Positions 35,005-43,730 of a stretch of DNA of 46,091 nt are shown here, in pieces. Position numbers and translations under genes: made by a program. The notes beneath the pieces are model-generated. The model did no database searches. It was not told where the DNA came from and saw only the letters and a list, made by a program, of their open reading frames with translations. Each line of letters opens with the position of its first letter. Within the stretch, counting starts at the first letter, position 1. The stretch spans positions 1 to 46,091 of the forward strand of contig CAMNGB010000002.1 of NCBI GenBank assembly GCA_946537835.1, given 5' to 3'. The stretch is from an uncultured Erysipelotrichaceae bacterium. GTDB lineage: Bacteria > Bacillota_I > Bacilli_A > Erysipelotrichales > Erysipelotrichaceae.

Positions 35005-37077
35005 ATGCCAAGAGAGTTTCCTCTGAACAAGATCCGTAATATTGGAATCATGGCTCATATCGATGCCGGCAAGACGACAACGACAGAGCGTATCCTTTAT
35101 TACACAGGTAAGATATACAAGATCGGTGAGACTCACGACGGCGCTTCCCAGATGGACTGGATGGCTCAGGAACAGGAACGTGGTATTACGATCACTTCCG
35201 CAGCCACAACCTGCCACTGGAAAGACTGCCAGATCAATATCATCGATACACCAGGTCACGTCGACTTCACAGCTGAAGTAGAACGTTCCCTGCGTGTCCT
35301 TGACGGAGCCGTAACCGTACTTGACTCAAAGGCAGGTGTAGAGCCGCAGACAGAAACAGTCTGGAGACAGGCTACTGAGTACAAAGTTCCGCGTATCGTA
35401 TTCTCCAACAAGATGGACGCAACAGGTGCCGACTTCGACATGTCTGTTGCTTCAATCGGAAACAGACTGGGTGCCAAGGCAGCTGCCATTCAGATGCCGA
35501 TCGGTGCCGAACAGTCCTTCCGCGGTATTATTGACCTCGTCACAATGCGCCAGTTCATGTACAACAATGACCTCGGCACAGACATCATCGAGTCCGATAT
35601 CGATGCCCAGTACATCGACAAGGCGACCGAAATGCATCAGACGATGCTGGAAATGATCGCTGACTATGATGAAGATCTGATGATGAAGGTTCTGGAAGGC
35701 GAAGAGCCGACCGTTGAAGAAATCAAGAAGGCAATCAGAGCCGGTGTTCTGACTTCTGAATTCTTCCCGGTTATGTGCGGATCCGCATATAAGAATAAGG
35801 GTGTTCAGCTGATGCTGGATGCGGTTGTCGACTATCTGCCGGCACCGACAGACATCCCGTCCATCAAGGGTACCCTGGAAGACGGTACAGAGAGCGAACG
35901 TCATCCTTCCGATGATGAACCGTTCAGTGCCCTGGCCTTCAAGGTTGCGACCGACCCGTTCGTCGGAAGACTGACTTACTTCCGCGTATATTCCGGTACA
36001 GCAACAGCCGGAAGCTATGTTCTGAATGCTTCCAAGGCAAAGAGAGAAAGATTCGGCCGTCTCGTCCGCATGCATGCGAACCACCGTGCCGATATCGAAG
36101 AAGTATATGCCGGTGACATTGCCGGTGCCGTCGGTCTGAAGAACACAACGACCGGTGACACACTGTGCGATGAAAAGAGCCCGATCATCCTCGAATCCAT
36201 GGTATTCCCGGAGCCGGTTATCCAGATGTCCGTTGAGCCGAAGACAAAGGCTGACTCACAGAAGATGGACGGCGCCCTGGCCAAGCTGGCTGAGGAAGAC
36301 CCGACATTCCGTACATATACAGACGAAGAAACAGGTCAGACGATCATTGCCGGTGTCGGCGAACTGCAGCTCGACATCATCATGGACCGTATGAGAAGAG
36401 AATTCAAAGTCGAAGCTACTGCCGGTGCTCCTCAGGTTGCTTACCGTGAGACGATCCGCAGGGAAGCCGAAGTTGAAGGCCGCTTCATCCGTCAGTCCGG
36501 CGGTCACGGTCAGTACGGTGACGTCTGGATCAGATTCTCACCGAACCCGGGCAAGGGATTCGAATTCGAAGACGCTACTGTCGGCGGATCCGTTCCGAAA
36601 GAATTCATCAAGCCTACCCAGGCCGGTCTGGAAGAAGCCCTCAACAACGGACTTGTTGCAGGCTACCCGGTCGTTGATATCAAGGCCGTCCTCTTCGACG
36701 GTAGTTACCATGATGTCGACTCCAGTGAACAGGCATATAAGATTGCTGCTTCCCTGGCACTGAAAGAAGCTGCCAAGGTATGCGATCCGGCCATTCTGGA
36801 ACCGATCATGGCTGTCGATATCACCGCACCGTCTGAATACCTCGGTGCTGTCATGGGTGACGTCACAAAGAGACGCGGCACCATCCGTGAACAGGAAGAA
36901 ATGGGCAATGCCATCAAGGTAAAGGCATTCATCCCGCTGGCACAGATGTTCGGTTATGTAACAGACCTGCGTTCCTTCACACAGGGCCGCGGCAACTACA
37001 TGATGCAGATGGACCACTATGAAGAGGTTCCGAAGAACATTGCCAAGGAAATCATCGAGAAAAACAGCACGAAATAA
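35005..37077 (+). CDS. fusA: Elongation factor G
   Basis: [25 protein letters not shown]..., [23 protein letters not shown]. Confidence 0.98.
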
Positions 37078-37091
37078 AACATAAGTAATTA

Positions 37092-37120
37092 TTGCAATTG
37101 GATAGTCGGTCGGCTAAAAT
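37092..37120 (+). promoter_or_regulatory. tuf promoter
   Basis: TTGCAA-N17-TAAAAT. Confidence 0.7.
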
Positions 37121-37161
37121 TATAGCAGACTGAAAATAAAAATAACGGAGGAAAAAACATT

Positions 37162-38355
37162 ATGGCAAAGCAGAAATTTGACCGTAGCCTCGAGCATGTA
37201 AACATCGGAACGATCGGCCATGTCGACCACGGCAAAACAACACTGACTGCAGCGATCACCAAGTATCTTGCTGAACATCCGGAAGACGGCAAGGCTGTCT
37301 TCGAAGCTTATGACAAGATCGACGGTGCTCCTGAAGAAAAGGCTCGTGGTATCACGATCAACACTGCTCACATTGAGTATCAGACAAACACAAGACACTA
37401 TGCACACGTTGACTGCCCAGGCCACGCTGACTATGTCAAGAACATGATCACAGGTGCCGCTCAGATGGACGGTGCTATCCTGGTTGTTGCAGCAACAGAC
37501 GGACCGATGCCGCAGACACGTGAGCACATCCTGCTCTCCCGTCAGGTAGGCGTTCCGAAGATGGTAGTATTCCTGAACAAGTGCGACATGGTTGACGATG
37601 AAGAACTCATTGACCTGGTCGAAATGGAAGTTCGCGAACTGCTTTCTGAATATGGATTCGACGGCGATGAGTGCCCGATTATCCGTGGTTCCGCATACGG
37701 CGCCCTGAACGGCGATCCGAAGTGGACACCGGCTATCAAGGAACTCCTTGATGCTGTTGATTCCTATATCCCGGCTCCGATGCATGAATTCGACAAGCCG
37801 TTCCTGATGGCTGTTGAAGACGTCTTCACAATCACAGGCCGTGGTACTGTTGCTACAGGCCGTGTAGAGCGTGGTAAACTGAACCTCAACGATACTGTTG
37901 AAATCGTCGGTATCCGTGAGACAAAGAGCACAGTCGTTACCGGAATCGAAATGTTCCGTAAGACTCTCGACTTCGCTCAGGCTGGTGACAACATCGGTGC
38001 TCTGCTCCGTGGTGTCAACCGTGACCAGATTGAACGTGGACAGGTTCTCGCTAAGCCGGGAAGCGTTACTCCGCACACAAAGTTCAAGGCTCAGGTTTAC
38101 GTACTGACAAAGGAAGAAGGCGGACGTCATACACCGTTCGTTTCCAACTACCGTCCGCAGTTCTATTTCCGTACAACTGACGTTACCGGTGTTATCAACC
38201 TTCCGGAAGGCACAGAAATGTGCATGCCTGGCGATAACGTCGAAATGAACGTTGAACTGCTGAAGCCGATCGCTATCGAAGAAGGAACACGTTTCTCCAT
38301 TCGTGAAGGCGGCCGTACAGTTGGTTCCGGCAACATCATCCACATTGATGAGTAA
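37162..38355 (+). CDS. tuf: Elongation factor Tu
   Basis: [25 protein letters not shown]..., [39 protein letters not shown]. Confidence 0.98.
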
Positions 38356-38380
38356 TTGCCTGCTTTAAATTAAAAAACAG

Positions 38381-38426
38381 AAACCGAAGCGCAGATGCCC
38401 ATATGCACCGCACTTCGGTTTTTTTA
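38381..38426 (+). terminator. Terminator downstream of tuf
   Basis: AACCGAAG...CTTCGGTT followed by T run. Confidence 0.8.
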
Positions 38427-38440
38427 GTTTCTCTGCATTA

Positions 38441-38449
38441 TGTTAATAT
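38441..38449 (+). promoter_or_regulatory. Extended -10 (TGtTAATAT) 8 nt before the HAD start codon
   Basis: TGT TAATAT gttgttat ATG. Confidence 0.5.
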
Positions 38450-38457
38450 GTTGTTAT

Positions 38458-39126
38458 ATGATCAGAGGAATATTGTTTGATTATGACAGCACCCTGAGCA
38501 GCCGCTATGAATCGGCGTACCGCATGTACAGGCATCTGATGCATCAGATTCTTCCCGACATGGATACTTCATCGCTTGCGTTTGAAGCCATGATCCAGAG
38601 AATGATGTACTGGGATCAGTACGGGACTGTCGACAAATCATATGTCATTGAAAAAATACGGGACAGATATGCGCCCGGCATTGACGTCAGGAAATGGAAG
38701 GATTACTGGTATGCCCACTTCCATGAATTTCAGGTGCCGATGCCGCATGCCGAAGAAATACTGACGGAACTGCAGAAGAAATACCGTCTGGGTCTTGTGA
38801 CCAACGGTGCCGGCGTCAGTCAGCTGGCCAAAGTCCGTGCCCTGGGGTTTGAGAAGTTCTTTTCGGTAATGATCGCTTCCGGAGACTTCGGAAGTGACAA
38901 GCCGGATCCGGCCATTTTCAGAAAGGCGGCAGAAGAGCTCGGTCTTCCCTGTGAAGAGATTGCCTTTATCGGCGATACGTTTCCGACCGATATCGCCGGA
39001 GCGATAGCAGCCGGCATGAAACCTGTATGGCTGTGCTATGAAAAAAGAACCGTATCTGAATACCCGGTCACGAAAATCAGTGACTTCGAGGAAATCAGAA
39101 CCATGTTTCTGGGGGATAAGACATGA
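38458..39126 (+). CDS. HAD-superfamily hydrolase
   Basis: MIRGILFDYDSTLSSRYESAY (DxD), GLVTNGAGVSQLAKVRALGFEKFFSVMIASGDFGSDKPDPAIF, FIGDTFPTDIAGAIAAG. Confidence 0.9.
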   Translation: MIRGILFDYDSTLSSRYESAYRMYRHLMHQILPDMDTSSLAFEAMIQRMMYWDQYGTVDKSYVIEKIRDRYAPGIDVRKWKDYWYAHFHEFQVPMPHAEEILTELQKKYRLGLVTNGAGVSQLAKVRALGFEKFFSVMIASGDFGSDKPDPAIFRKAAEELGLPCEEIAFIGDTFPTDIAGAIAAGMKPVWLCYEKRTVSEYPVTKISDFEEIRTMFLGDKT

Positions 39127-40043
39127 AACAGTTAAAGAAACTCCTGCTGCTGATACCGCTGGTGCTGCTGGGATCATTCATCCTGCTGCGCATGGCAGCT
39201 CAGCCGCAGCCTGCTCCGCAGCCGGATCCGACGCCGGTTGCGGCTCCCGAACCGGTCACGGCTCCGGAACCTGAATCCGGCATCCGCGAGGACGGCATAT
39301 ATGATTCGAAGGATGATGTAGCGCTCTACCTGTATACCTATCATCATCTGCCGTCCAACTACATGACCAAGAAGGAAGCGCGGAAACTCGGCTGGGATGA
39401 AGGTCCGCTGAATCAGTTCGCAGAAGGGAAGTGTCTGGGCGGTGATGTATTTGCCAACCGTGAAGGCAATCTTCCGAAGATATCCGGACGCTACTATGAA
39501 TGCGAGATTGATACCCTGACCGCAGATGAGCGCGGGGAAAAGCGCATTGTATGGTCGGATGACTTTGATATCTATTACACCGACGACTACTACAAGACCT
39601 TTGTAAAGCTGTATGACAGTCCCGGCGGCACGGTTTCATCACAGACGCCGGAACCGGATCCTGTTCCGCCGGTCACTCCCGCTCCGATCTCCGAAGCCGA
39701 AGTGGCAGAGGACGGCATATATGATACTGCCGATGAAGTAGCCCTCTATCTGATTTCCTATCATCATCTTCCTTCCAACTATATGACCAAGAAGGAAGCG
39801 AGAAAACTCGGATGGAGCGGCGGCGCTCTGAACCAGGTTGCGGAAGGAAAGTGCATCGGCGGCGATGTCTACGGCAATTATGAAGGGATTCTGCCGGAAA
39901 TATCCGGAAATTACTACGAATGTGACATTGATACGATCAACAGCAAAAGACGGGGTGAAAAGCGTCTGATCTGGTCAGATGACTGGGATATTTACTATAC
40001 CGAAGACCATTATGAGACGTTTGTTCAGCTCTACGGAGACTGA
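39123..40043 (+). CDS. Exported or membrane-anchored tandem barnase-like ribonuclease (two barnase/N1-type domains)
   Basis: Hydrophobic N-terminus, Pro-rich linkers, and two domains (39288-39617, 39708-40040; DNA period 420 bp) matching barnase: YHxLPxNYxTKxEAxxLGW, GxxxGGDVxxNxEGxLPxxSGxxYECxID, R...R(I/L)xWSDDxDIYYTxDxYxTF. Confidence 0.9.
   Translation: MKQLKKLLLLIPLVLLGSFILLRMAAQPQPAPQPDPTPVAAPEPVTAPEPESGIREDGIYDSKDDVALYLYTYHHLPSNYMTKKEARKLGWDEGPLNQFAEGKCLGGDVFANREGNLPKISGRYYECEIDTLTADERGEKRIVWSDDFDIYYTDDYYKTFVKLYDSPGGTVSSQTPEPDPVPPVTPAPISEAEVAEDGIYDTADEVALYLISYHHLPSNYMTKKEARKLGWSGGALNQVAEGKCIGGDVYGNYEGILPEISGNYYECDIDTINSKRRGEKRLIWSDDWDIYYTEDHYETFVQLYGD
39288..40040 (+). repeat. Intragenic tandem duplication of the barnase domain, ~420-bp period
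   Basis: Exact shared words at 39288/39708 (GAGGACGGCATATATGAT) and ATGACCAAGAAGGAAGCG, with diverged sequence elsewhere. Confidence 0.9.
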
Positions 40044-40044
40044 A

Positions 40045-40320
40045 ATGGCAGGAAAAGAAATCAGAATCGATGCATCACGCATCACCTCCCGCCGGGACAT
40101 GGCGGAATATATGAAGGAATTGTTTTCGTTCCCGGATACGTTCGGCGGCAACCTGGATGCCCTGCATGACAGTCTTTCGGAGGTCAGCGAAGATACGGTG
40201 CTGATCTTCGACGCCCCGACACTCAGGGATATCTGTGATGACAAATATGCATGGAAAGTGCTGCGGGTGCTGCTGGATGAGACGGATGAGAACCCCCATA
40301 TCCGGGTGAAACTTGTCTGA
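40045..40320 (+). CDS. Barstar-family ribonuclease inhibitor
   Basis: KEIRIDASRITSRRDMAEYMKELFSFPDTFGGNLDALHDSLSEV matches barstar (..LPEYYGENLDALWDCL), with the two Asp of NLDALxD kept; 1 nt after the RNase gene. Confidence 0.9.
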   Translation: MAGKEIRIDASRITSRRDMAEYMKELFSFPDTFGGNLDALHDSLSEVSEDTVLIFDAPTLRDICDDKYAWKVLRVLLDETDENPHIRVKLV

Positions 40321-40368
40321 AAAAGCAACGCATTCGGTAAAAAAAGCGCTTACATGAGACCAAAAAAG

Positions 40369-40400
40369 AGGGTGGAAATCAGTTGTATTTCCGCCTTTTT
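40369..40400 (+). terminator. Terminator after barstar
   Basis: GGTGGAAAT-cagttgt-ATTTCCGCC-TTTTT. Confidence 0.75.
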
Positions 40401-40430
40401 AAATTTGTCAAAAAAGCTTTAAAAATGTGC

Positions 40431-40575
40431 TTGCAATGGGCATTTTGGGGTGTTAATATATTGAAGCACTCGCGTGGACGTGGGAGGTTGCCGGCACGCC
40501 GAAATGCGTTGTCACGGTAAGCGTGATAACCGGGGAATTTCCACTGAGCGATCCCGAAGAGGGAGTGAATATAAG
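40431..40575 (+). promoter_or_regulatory. S10 operon promoter and structured leader
   Basis: TTGCAA (40431)-N17-TAATAT (40454) with TGt; leader with multiple complementary segments (GCGTGGACGTGGGAGGTTGCCGGCACGCC..., CACGGTAAGCGTG) before the RBS. Confidence 0.65.
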
Positions 40576-40587
40576 GAGGAAAAATTC

Positions 40588-40899
40588 ATGGCAAAGAACT
40601 CTGTAAGAATTCGTCTGAAGGCTTACGAGAACAGAAGTTTGGATGCAGCCAGCGAGAAGATCGTCTCCACTGCTACAAACCACGGCGCAAAGAAGATCGT
40701 CGGACCTGTTCCGCTGCCGACAGAGCGCGAAGTCATTACTGTGCTTCGTGCGGTACACAAGTACAAGGACTCTCGTGAGCAGTTTGAGATCCGTACACAC
40801 AAGAGACTGATCGAAATCATCGGTCCGAGTGCCGAAACGATCGATGCACTGAGCAGACTGGATCTGCCGTCCGGCGTCGATATCGAAATCAAACTTTAA
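40588..40899 (+). CDS. rpsJ: 30S ribosomal protein S10
   Basis: [40 protein letters not shown]; start 40588. Confidence 0.98.
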
Positions 40900-40920
40900 G
40901 GAAAGGACCGGTGAATACAG

Positions 40921-41613
40921 ATGAAGGGTATTTTAGGACGTAAGCTCGGTATGACACAGGTCTTTACAACTGACGGCGAACTGATTCCGGTTACTGTCGT
41001 TGAAGTAAAACCGAACGTTGTACTGCAGAAGAAAACAAATGAGACAGATGGCTACGAAGCAATTCAGCTCGGCTACGAGGATGTCAAGGAACATCGCTCC
41101 AACAAGCCGGCCATCGGTCACGCAAAGAAAGCCAACACAGCTCCGAAGCATTACATCAGAGAAATCAAGGCTGATGAAATGATGGATCTGGAGGTCGGCG
41201 CAGAAGTCAAGGCTGACCTGTTCAAGGCCGGCGACCTGGTAGATGTCCAGGGCGTCAGCAAGGGACATGGCTACACCGGAACGATTGCGCGCTACAATGC
41301 GCACCGCGGACCGGAATCCCACGGTGGTTCCAAGAACACAAGACACATCGGTTCGCTGGCCACTACCGGACGTAACAACGGCCGTATCGAAAAGAACACA
41401 CCGATGCCGGGCCACGACGGTGTCTATACGACAACCAACCAGAACCTGACAGTTGTCAAGGTTGACACGGAAGACGGATACATCCTGATCAAGGGCAACG
41501 TTCCGGGTCCGAAGAAAGGTCTGGTCATGATCAAGACAACCGTCAAGCCGGTGAAAGAAACAAAGGCTCCGGAGCTGATCAGTTACGCAGCTTCCGAAGA
41601 AGAAGGAAAGTAA
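40921..41613 (+). CDS. rplC: 50S ribosomal protein L3
   Basis: [15 protein letters not shown]...[23 protein letters not shown]. Confidence 0.98.
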
Positions 41614-41626
41614 GAGGAGGTAAACG

Positions 41627-42256
41627 ATGTCAAAGGTTGATGTATACAATCAGAAAGCCGAGGTCGTTAAGTCCGTTGAGCTGTCTGACGCTGTATTCGG
41701 CATTGAACCGAATCAGCAGGCAATGTATGATGCAGTCCTCGTCTACCTCGCCGGTTTAAGACAGGGAACGCATTCCACAAAGACAAGAGCGTTTGTATCC
41801 GGAACAGGCAAGAAGCCGTTCCGCCAGAAGGGTACAGGCCGCGCCCGTCAGGGTTCCACAAGAGCTACACAGTGGAGACACGGTGCGATCGCATTCGGTC
41901 CGCATCCGCGCAAGTACAACCTCAAGATGAACCGCAAGGTCCGTCAGCTGGCTCTCCGCTCCGCTCTGAGCGAAAAGTGCAGAAACAGCGATCTGACTCT
42001 GATCGACAATCTGTCATTCGATGAGATCAAGACGAAGAAGGCTGTCGCACTTCTGGAAGCATTCAACTTCGACAGAAAGACACTGTTCGTAGCTGATGCA
42101 TCCGAAGACTTCGACAACGCATACGTTTCCATGAGAAACATTCCGAATGCAATGCTGGTTACAGTAGCAGGCCTCAATGTTTACGACATTGTCAACGCTG
42201 ACAAGATCGTCTTCACGGAAGCTGCCGCTGCCAAAGCAGGGGAGGTATTCGCATAA
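41627..42256 (+). CDS. rplD: 50S ribosomal protein L4
   Basis: GTHSTKTRAFVSGTGKKPFRQKGTGRARQGSTRATQWRHGAIAFGPHPR. Confidence 0.98.
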   Translation: MSKVDVYNQKAEVVKSVELSDAVFGIEPNQQAMYDAVLVYLAGLRQGTHSTKTRAFVSGTGKKPFRQKGTGRARQGSTRATQWRHGAIAFGPHPRKYNLKMNRKVRQLALRSALSEKCRNSDLTLIDNLSFDEIKTKKAVALLEAFNFDRKTLFVADASEDFDNAYVSMRNIPNAMLVTVAGLNVYDIVNADKIVFTEAAAAKAGEVFA

Positions 42257-42543
42257 TGAGTGCACGTGATATTATTATCCGCCCGGTCGTTACCGAAAAG
42301 TCGATGAAGATGTCCCAGGACAACAAGGTCACCTTCATTGTTGACAAAGGCGCAAACAAGGTTTCCGTTGCCCAGGCAATCAAGGAAATCTACGGCATCA
42401 CTGCTGAAAAGGTAAATATCGTAAACGTTCATCCGAAGACAAGAAGAGTCGGACGTTACGAAGGAAAGACAAACGCCTTCAAGAAGGCTATCGTCAAGCT
42501 GCCGGAAGGCGCTTCGATCGATATCTTCGGTACAGAAGAGTAA
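42256..42543 (+). CDS. rplW: 50S ribosomal protein L23
   Basis: DIIIRPVVTEKSMKMSQDNKVTFIVDKGANKVSVAQAIKEIYG. Confidence 0.97.
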   Translation: MSARDIIIRPVVTEKSMKMSQDNKVTFIVDKGANKVSVAQAIKEIYGITAEKVNIVNVHPKTRRVGRYEGKTNAFKKAIVKLPEGASIDIFGTEE

Positions 42544-42606
42544 TTGAATTAACTATCGGAGGAACATCGCTATCTCCGGATAAAATGCGAAAGGAAAGAA
42601 GAGAAA

Positions 42607-43440
42607 ATGGCAATCATCAAATATAAGCCGACCAGCAACGGCCGCAGAAACATGACCACTCTCGCCAACGATGTCATCACGACATCGAAGCCGGAAAAGA
42701 GTCTGCTTGCGCCGCTGAACAAGAAGGCCGGCAGAAACAACACCGGCAAGATCATGACCCGTCATCAGGGCGGCGGTGTAAAGCAGAAGTACAGAGTCAT
42801 CGATTTCAAGAGAAACAAGGACAACGTTCCGGGCAAGGTTGCAACGATCGAATACGATCCGAACCGCAATGCCAACATCGCGCTGATCAACTACGCTGAC
42901 GGTGAAAAGAGATACATCCTTCATCCGGAAGGACTGAAGGTCGGCGATACAGTCATCTCCGGCGAAGCAGTCGACATCAAGGTCGGCAACGCCATGGAAA
43001 TGAAAAACATGCCGGATGGTACATTCGTGCACAACGTTGAGCTGAAGGCGGGCAAGGGCGGCCAGATGGCAAGATCTGCAGGCTGCTCCGCTCAGATCCT
43101 CGGTTCCGAAGGCGGATTCGTAACACTGCGTCTGTCTTCCGGTGAAGTACGCCGCGTTCACAGCAACTGCCGTGCTACGGTAGGTGTTGTCGGCAACGGC
43201 CAGTACAACCTGATCAACTGGGGTAAGGCAGGACGCAACAGACACAGAGGCATCCGCCCGACAGTCAGAGGTTCCGCGATGAACCCGGTCGACCATCCGC
43301 ATGGCGGTGGTGAAGGCCGCGCTCCGATCGGACGCAAGGCTCCGATGACACCGTGGGGCAAGAAAGCCATGGGTGTCAAGACGCGCAATACCAAGGCTCA
43401 GTCCAATAAGTATATTGTGAGAAGAAGAAACGGGAAATAA
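42607..43440 (+). CDS. rplB: 50S ribosomal protein L2
   Basis: [13 protein letters not shown]...[36 protein letters not shown]. Confidence 0.98.
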
Positions 43441-43460
43441 TTGAAAGGAGAGAATGAATA

Positions 43461-43730
43461 ATGTCAAGAAGTATTAAAAAGGGCCCGTTCTGTGATGCTT
43501 ACCTTCTGAAGAAGGTTGACGCTCTGAACGCTGCCAACAAAAAAGAAGTTATTAAGACATGGTCACGCCGTTCAACGATTTTCCCGAGCTTCGTTGAGCA
43601 TACATTCGCTGTTCATAACGGCAAGGAACACGTTCCGGTTTATGTAACAGAGGATATGGTCGGACATAAGCTCGGTGAGTTTGTTCCGACAAGAAAGTTC
43701 GGCGGTCACGGTGCCGACAAGAAGGGATAA
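43461..43730 (+). CDS. rpsS: 30S ribosomal protein S19
   Basis: [19 protein letters not shown]...[30 protein letters not shown]. Confidence 0.98.

Follow-up and report, generated by a model that had tools for sequence, protein, structure and literature searches.

Tandem barnases in which a predicted live domain is joined to a conserved, predicted catalytically dead one, encoded beside a barstar gene

The complex of the ribonuclease (RNase) barnase with its inhibitor barstar is a reference system for how proteins recognise one another, and its largest hot spots include His102 and Arg59 of barnase. On the barnase side, alanine substitution costs 6.1 kcal/mol of barstar binding for H102A, 5.2 for R59A, 5.4 for K27A and 5.5 for R87A, and on the barstar side the cost is 4.5 kcal/mol for D35A and 1.3 for E76A (PMC1913526). 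Arg59 of barnase contacts barstar Asp35 and Glu76 (PMC4207830, PMC8837141). Here we describe a gene that encodes two barnase domains in one chain, found in a 46,091-nucleotide stretch (the window) of contig CAMNGB010000002.1 from an uncultured Erysipelotrichaceae bacterium (assembly GCA_946537835.1). In barnase numbering, which is used throughout, the first domain (D1) has Arg59 and no His102, and the second (D2) has Tyr59 and His102. Domains without and with His102 are called dead and live below, both terms being predictions of activity.

The gene occupies 39123-40043 on the forward strand as an open reading frame (ORF) of 306 amino acids, which begins at an ATG with GGGGGA just 5' of it and contains no internal stop. 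PF00545 was found twice in the protein, both times with a score over the cut-off of the profile (whole-protein E 1.2e-31, Pfam); D1 alone scored 54.8 bits against a cut-off of 24 bits, and both domains matched barnase in the PDB by sequence (E ~1e-25). The protein starts with a hydrophobic helix at amino acids 2-25, also modelled as a helix by AlphaFold and predicted to be an export signal or membrane anchor, and continues with a Pro-rich linker to about amino acid 57 (39123-39293). D1 follows at amino acids 58-165 (39294-39617), then a flexible linker of 32 amino acids (39618-39713), with a predicted local distance difference test score (pLDDT) below 50 at amino acids 170-180, and D2 at amino acids 198-305 (39714-40037). 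The two domains repeat with a period of 420 base pairs (bp) and share 72% identity at the protein level and 73% at the DNA level. In the AlphaFold model (mean pLDDT 84.7, predicted template modelling score 0.48) each domain exceeded pLDDT 90 in most blocks, the N-terminal linker fell partly below 50, and the relative orientation of D1 and D2 was undefined; Foldseek matched the model to barnase structures with a template modelling (TM) score of 0.92 normalised by target length. This layout is the one that the original prediction, made from the letters of the window, had proposed, and export itself keeps its predicted status.

Codon reading showed that D1 retains Lys27, Arg59 (CGT, 39459-39461), Glu60, Glu73, Arg83 and Arg87 and has Tyr at position 102 (TAC, 39588-39590), and that D2 carries Lys27, Tyr59 (TAT, 39879-39881), Glu60, Glu73, Arg83, Arg87 and His102 (CAT, 40008-40010). 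Residues 59 and 102 thus read exactly as first proposed, and alignment placed the predicted Lys27, Glu73, Arg83 and Arg87 equivalents in both domains. D2 has the fold and the catalytic residues (Lys27, Glu73, Arg83, Arg87 and His102) of a PF00545 member, and D1 has the family profile and fold. For activity, D1 has neither His102 nor a structural substitute. The original prediction had considered that another histidine might sit in the D1 active site, and no usable one was found: the two histidines of D1 (amino acids 74 and 75) correspond to barnase positions ~18-19, in the N-terminal helix region. Because the general-acid histidine is missing, D1 is predicted to be non-catalytic and would be unable to cut RNA, and D2 would be the domain that cuts it.

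Relatives were gathered from the window's genus and family, the family of a clostridial tandem, its class, the phylum and GTDB contigs, most of the surveyed genomes being metagenome-assembled genomes (MAGs), and each barnase domain was mapped to barnase numbering by alignment. The nearest named relatives of the window are rumen and gut Erysipelotrichaceae/Solobacterium MAGs. In total, 38 two-domain barnases were found, in Erysipelotrichaceae and in a rumen Clostridia family; 37 were distinct ORFs of the first set, and L210 came from a later sample drawn after the rule given here had been stated. Each of the 38 combines a single Tyr59/His102 domain with a domain that lacks His102. Every dead domain readable at position 59 has Arg (34) or Lys (3) there, the 38th (L013) being cut off by a contig end. 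His102 is replaced in dead domains by Tyr, Lys, Asn, Ala, Gly, Gln, Arg or Glu. The order of the domains varies: the window's gene, L013, two congeneric genomes (L035/L064 and L036/L065) and five clostridial genes (L119, L129, L141, L146 and L210) have the dead domain on the N-terminal side, and 29 clostridial genes have it on the C-terminal side. The single-domain relatives readable at position 102 numbered 172 (114 in the first set and 58 in the later sample), and all of them keep His102, so the loss of His102 is confined to tandems.

At position 59 these 172 single-domain relatives have Tyr in 109, Arg in 37, Phe in 11 and other residues in the rest. Since Tyr59 is the commonest state of intact single-domain barnases, D2 has lost nothing at this position and D1 is the odd domain. 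The original prediction that each domain had lost a different key residue therefore stood for His102 in D1 and fell for D2, where a loss by R59Y is ruled out. Sequencing or assembly error as the cause of the split is ruled out, as it recurs in 38 loci from many genomes.

The clostridial tandem count is a lower bound, the Pfam model having given one match only in L141, L146 and L210. Long N-terminal extensions of clostridial frames with a single Pfam match were considered as places for a hidden degenerate barnase; these three proved to be tandems, and the remaining fetched frames held other sequences. By eye, the N-terminal region resembles a peptidoglycan-binding repeat in nine clostridial single live barnases (L137, L138, L140, L142-L145, L147 and L153), an FMN-binding domain in L170 and L171, and an alpha/beta-hydrolase in L093 and L150. 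When 396 genomes from across the phylum were scanned, the only tandem to appear was the window's own. Among plasmid records, relatives reached at most ~49% identity, and none covered 80% of the query in one place. No tandem or pseudoenzyme barnase was met in the literature searched, a body without most subscription journals.

We then compared selection on the two kinds of domain. The ratio of nonsynonymous to synonymous substitution (dN/dS, Nei-Gojobori) between related tandem genes ranged from 0.03 to 0.18 in dead domains and from 0.02 to 0.16 in live ones, with dS saturated in some pairs. As the values for dead domains match those for live ones, the dead domain is maintained; its catalytic residue is gone, its fold is retained and it is under purifying selection, as in a pseudoenzyme kept by selection. 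Arg83 and Arg87 are present in every dead domain, and Asn58 and Glu60 nearly always. Among the 29 clostridial dead domains, Arg83, Arg87 and Asn58 occur in 29/29, Glu60 in 28/29 and Glu73 in 24/29; the same set is relaxed at Lys27 (lost in 9/29) and Tyr103 (changed in 21/29) and has its own conserved Lys38, Lys39 and Asp40. Lys27 has become Leu or Met together with Lys102 in the dead domains of L123, L074, L122, L125, L126, L130, L167 and L168, the exception being L124 with Gln102. From the residues, it looks as if one positive charge of the cleft had been kept and moved across it.

Lys104 is found in 26/36 dead domains and is frequent in all three clades described below, whereas Glu, Asn and Ser predominate at this position in the live partners. 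Compared with its live partner, the cleft rim of the dead domain is more basic in 24/36 tandems and less basic in 6/36, at rim positions picked after the alignment had been inspected. Taken whole, dead domains are the more acidic, with a mean charge of -5.5 against -2.9 for live domains. A basic rim on an acidic domain favours a specific acidic partner over general affinity for RNA. The suggestion in the original prediction of one catalytic and one dead binding domain was upheld in so far as the split at His102 recurs and purifying selection fits a binding domain; for the ligand, whether barstar, RNA or another, there are candidates rather than proof.

A domain tree built without columns 59 and 102 placed the dead domains in three clades. 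In the approximately unbiased (AU) test, a single clade of all dead domains was rejected (p=0.000165), which rules out one ancient duplication as the source of them all. The two clostridial dead groups came together, with weak support (87/67), in a smaller and more careful tree, and may have a common origin; a constraint that kept the clostridial live domains together was not rejected (AU test, p=0.14). The barstars of tandem loci formed four groups, all forced by well-supported branches. These results establish two origins of the tandem arrangement firmly, and three or four are likely. Dead and live domains of the window's genus fall together in one clade (98/89), which lies inside a group whose single domains nearly all have Tyr, Phe or another non-Arg residue at 59 and His at 102. 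Because the dead domains nest within Tyr59/His102 domains there, Arg59 and the loss of His102 both look derived in this genus.

The barstar gene of the window lies at 40045-40320 on the forward strand (91 amino acids; PF01337, E 1.8e-12), its ORF beginning one base after the stop codon of the tandem barnase. The protein keeps Asp35, Asp39 and Asp76, has Thr at 29, and is the only barstar found in its genome; with this adjacent Asp35/Asp39 barstar, the two genes form a predicted barnase-barstar pair. A barstar gene was adjacent at all 37 tandem loci examined, and residue 76 of barstar was acidic (Asp/Glu) at 37/37 tandem loci, at 63/65 loci with any Arg/Lys59 domain and at 33/75 loci without one. 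Within the window's genus, Arg/Lys76 was found in 18/25 single-domain loci without Arg59, and Asp76 in 3/3 tandem loci. L055, the sole tabulated congeneric single-domain barnase with Arg59, has a barstar with Asp76, consistent with a pairing of residues 59 and 76. Barstar Tyr29, a partner of His102, has changed to Thr in 3/3 tandems of the genus, which by alignment is suggestive; position 29 varies in the single-domain loci of the genus too. In three dead-first clostridial loci (L119, L141 and L146) the barstar ORFs are 233-243 amino acids long, with a C-terminal extension that by eye resembles hexapeptide-repeat (left-handed beta-helix) acyltransferases.

The explanation that we consider best is that the protein is an exported or anchored guanyl-type RNase, in which a pseudoenzyme domain maintained by selection is tethered to the live domain and binds a ligand, most likely barstar; as a whole we put it forward tentatively, at somewhat short of an even chance. 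The dead half is kept intact, hence it probably binds something, and its own inhibitor would most likely be the partner. D1 would be kept by selection as a binding domain with a positive cleft (Arg59, Arg83, Arg87 and usually Lys27), and barstar from the next gene would dock on D1, as well as on D2 or in preference to it. Barstar is the likeliest ligand of D1 because Arg59 is one of the main contacts to barstar and tandem loci encode a barstar with an acidic residue at 76. As the energetic contributions of His102 and Arg59 are both large, each tandem domain keeps one of the two major barstar hot spots. Docking on D1 might keep barstar close to the active domain ahead of export, or might set its free amount. 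That the dead copy evolved repeatedly as a dedicated docking site for the inhibitor, with His102 and Arg59 split over tethered domains and barstar re-tuned to the dead one, is a broader proposal that we regard as possible and less than probable.

Several observations weigh against docking of barstar on the dead domain. Clostridial single-domain loci with Tyr59 also mostly have Asp76 (11/14 read), so that the evidential value of Asp76 is limited to the window's genus. A tree-corrected test of residue 59 against residue 76 gave the same direction without significance, and the pairing was set aside as formal proof of docking because there were too few independent pairs. Barstar distances follow those of the live domain no less closely than those of the dead one (partial r 0.40 against 0.33), and this mirror-tree comparison does not discriminate between them. 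Given the cost of H102A, barstar would be bound less strongly by the dead domain than by complete barnase. Dead domains also keep residues for guanine recognition and phosphate binding, as an RNA-binding domain would. Docking of barstar is nevertheless our leading hypothesis, with an accessory role in RNA binding as the main rival.

In that rival, the dead domain is an accessory module that holds guanine-containing RNA and raises the cutting efficiency of the live domain, to be likened to a carbohydrate-binding module on a glycoside hydrolase; we consider it rather unlikely. It would account for the retention of Asn58, Glu60, Arg83 and Arg87, through which the family contacts guanine and phosphate, and for the more basic cleft rim with its frequent Lys104. 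The linkers between the domains of tandems are flexible (16-54 amino acids), and single-domain relatives of the same clostridial family bear other N-terminal accessory regions, both of which suit such a module. The more acidic overall charge of dead domains and the relaxation at Lys27 and Tyr103 in the clostridial set speak against it, and it leaves unexplained both the shift to Asp76 in the barstars of the window's genus and the replacement by Arg59 of Tyr59, a residue which we take to be the structural equivalent of the Tyr45 guanine-loop position in RNase T1. In RNase T1, Tyr45 of the guanine loop contacts guanine (PMC9266746).

A second alternative, which we find improbable, makes the dead domain a decoy that soaks up the barstars of competitors in another cell and so frees the live domain. 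The dead domain does keep most barstar contacts without predicted activity, the Arg59 hot spot, worth 5.2 kcal/mol by R59A (PMC1913526), is missing from the live domain, and barnase and barstar have been discussed as incipient toxin-immunity pairs (PMC3482391). Nevertheless, no delivery apparatus or toxin-delivery domain appeared in the Pfam results, and the cognate barstar itself keeps Asp76, so that a decoy would hit its producer first. The protein has no N-terminal delivery domain with exchangeable C-terminal cassettes, Pfam giving PF00545 only, and a mobile polymorphic-toxin cassette is disfavoured because the tandem genes of the window's genus are found at a conserved housekeeping site flanked by tuf and rpsJ.

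It is similarly doubtful that the dead domain binds some other surface, such as the cell wall or another secreted protein, with its cleft incidental. The peptidoglycan-binding-repeat-like N-terminal regions seen by eye in other barnases of the clostridial family, and the Lys38-Lys39-Asp40 loop peculiar to clostridial dead domains, would fit such a role, but the most conserved part of dead domains is the old active-site cleft and no new surface. Neutral decay of one copy after tandem duplication, merely tolerated, is very improbable: loss of His102 is a simple inactivating change, its replacements are diverse and an in-frame stop precedes domain 1 in one relative, but dN/dS in dead domains is like that in live ones, Arg83, Arg87 and Asn58 are invariant in them, and decay would not repeatedly keep Arg59, which as Arg/Lys59 is fixed in the dead domains of three separate clades with Tyr in the live partner.

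The in-frame stop just mentioned is a TAG in L035/L064 (same assembly, RUG13885; L035 ~1642-1644), between the export/linker region and domain 1. It is either an assembly error or a sign of a broken gene; the window copy lacks such a TAG, and intact homologues exist. Upstream of the tandem barnase in the window, and in the same direction, Pfam and gene order identified a HAD-type hydrolase gene (38440-39126, forward strand), whose 3' end overlaps the barnase start by 4 bp and which is probably functionally unlinked to the barnase. The order tuf-(HAD)-barnase-barstar-rpsJ was found in all three tandem genomes of the window's genus and partly in single-domain genomes. In the window (35005-43730) the pair has tuf on one side and the rpsJ ribosomal operon on the other, an unusual housekeeping site for a toxin-inhibitor pair, and several congeners show a similar tuf/rpsJ location.

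The His102 and Arg59 hot spots have been separated naturally between the two domains of a single chain, on more than one occasion and in both possible orders. The 38 natural sequences provide a ready set for asking whether catalysis and inhibitor binding uncouple, and they pose the question of why a dead RNase domain is retained. For annotation they are a caution that a PF00545 match need not mean an active RNase domain. If the dead domain is indeed a docking site for the protein's own inhibitor, these tandems would be a case in which evolution has convergently taken apart the textbook barnase-barstar interface.

Among known systems, the tandem protein resembles barnase and binase, the Bacillus guanyl-specific RNases of PF00545, in its fold, in the catalytic set of D2, in the adjacent barstar gene and in predicted export, and differs in having two domains per chain, one of them without His102, and Tyr rather than Arg at position 59 of the live domain. 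RNase T1, a fungal guanyl RNase, is unlike it in being single-domain and without barstar pairing. With the barnase-barstar pairs and Tox-Barnase cassettes of polymorphic toxin systems (PMC3482391) it shares the toxin-then-immunity order and a barstar inhibitor, whereas it has no delivery domains, lies at a fixed housekeeping locus and carries two barnase domains per chain. The closest parallels to the dead domains are engineered: the Foldseek matches included PDB 2c4b, titled catalytically inactive barnase H102A, and 2rbi, binase His101Asn. The dead domains are changed at the same position, with Ala and Asn also among the natural replacements; unlike the engineered forms, they are natural, selected and tethered to a live copy, with Arg59 where the live partner has Tyr.
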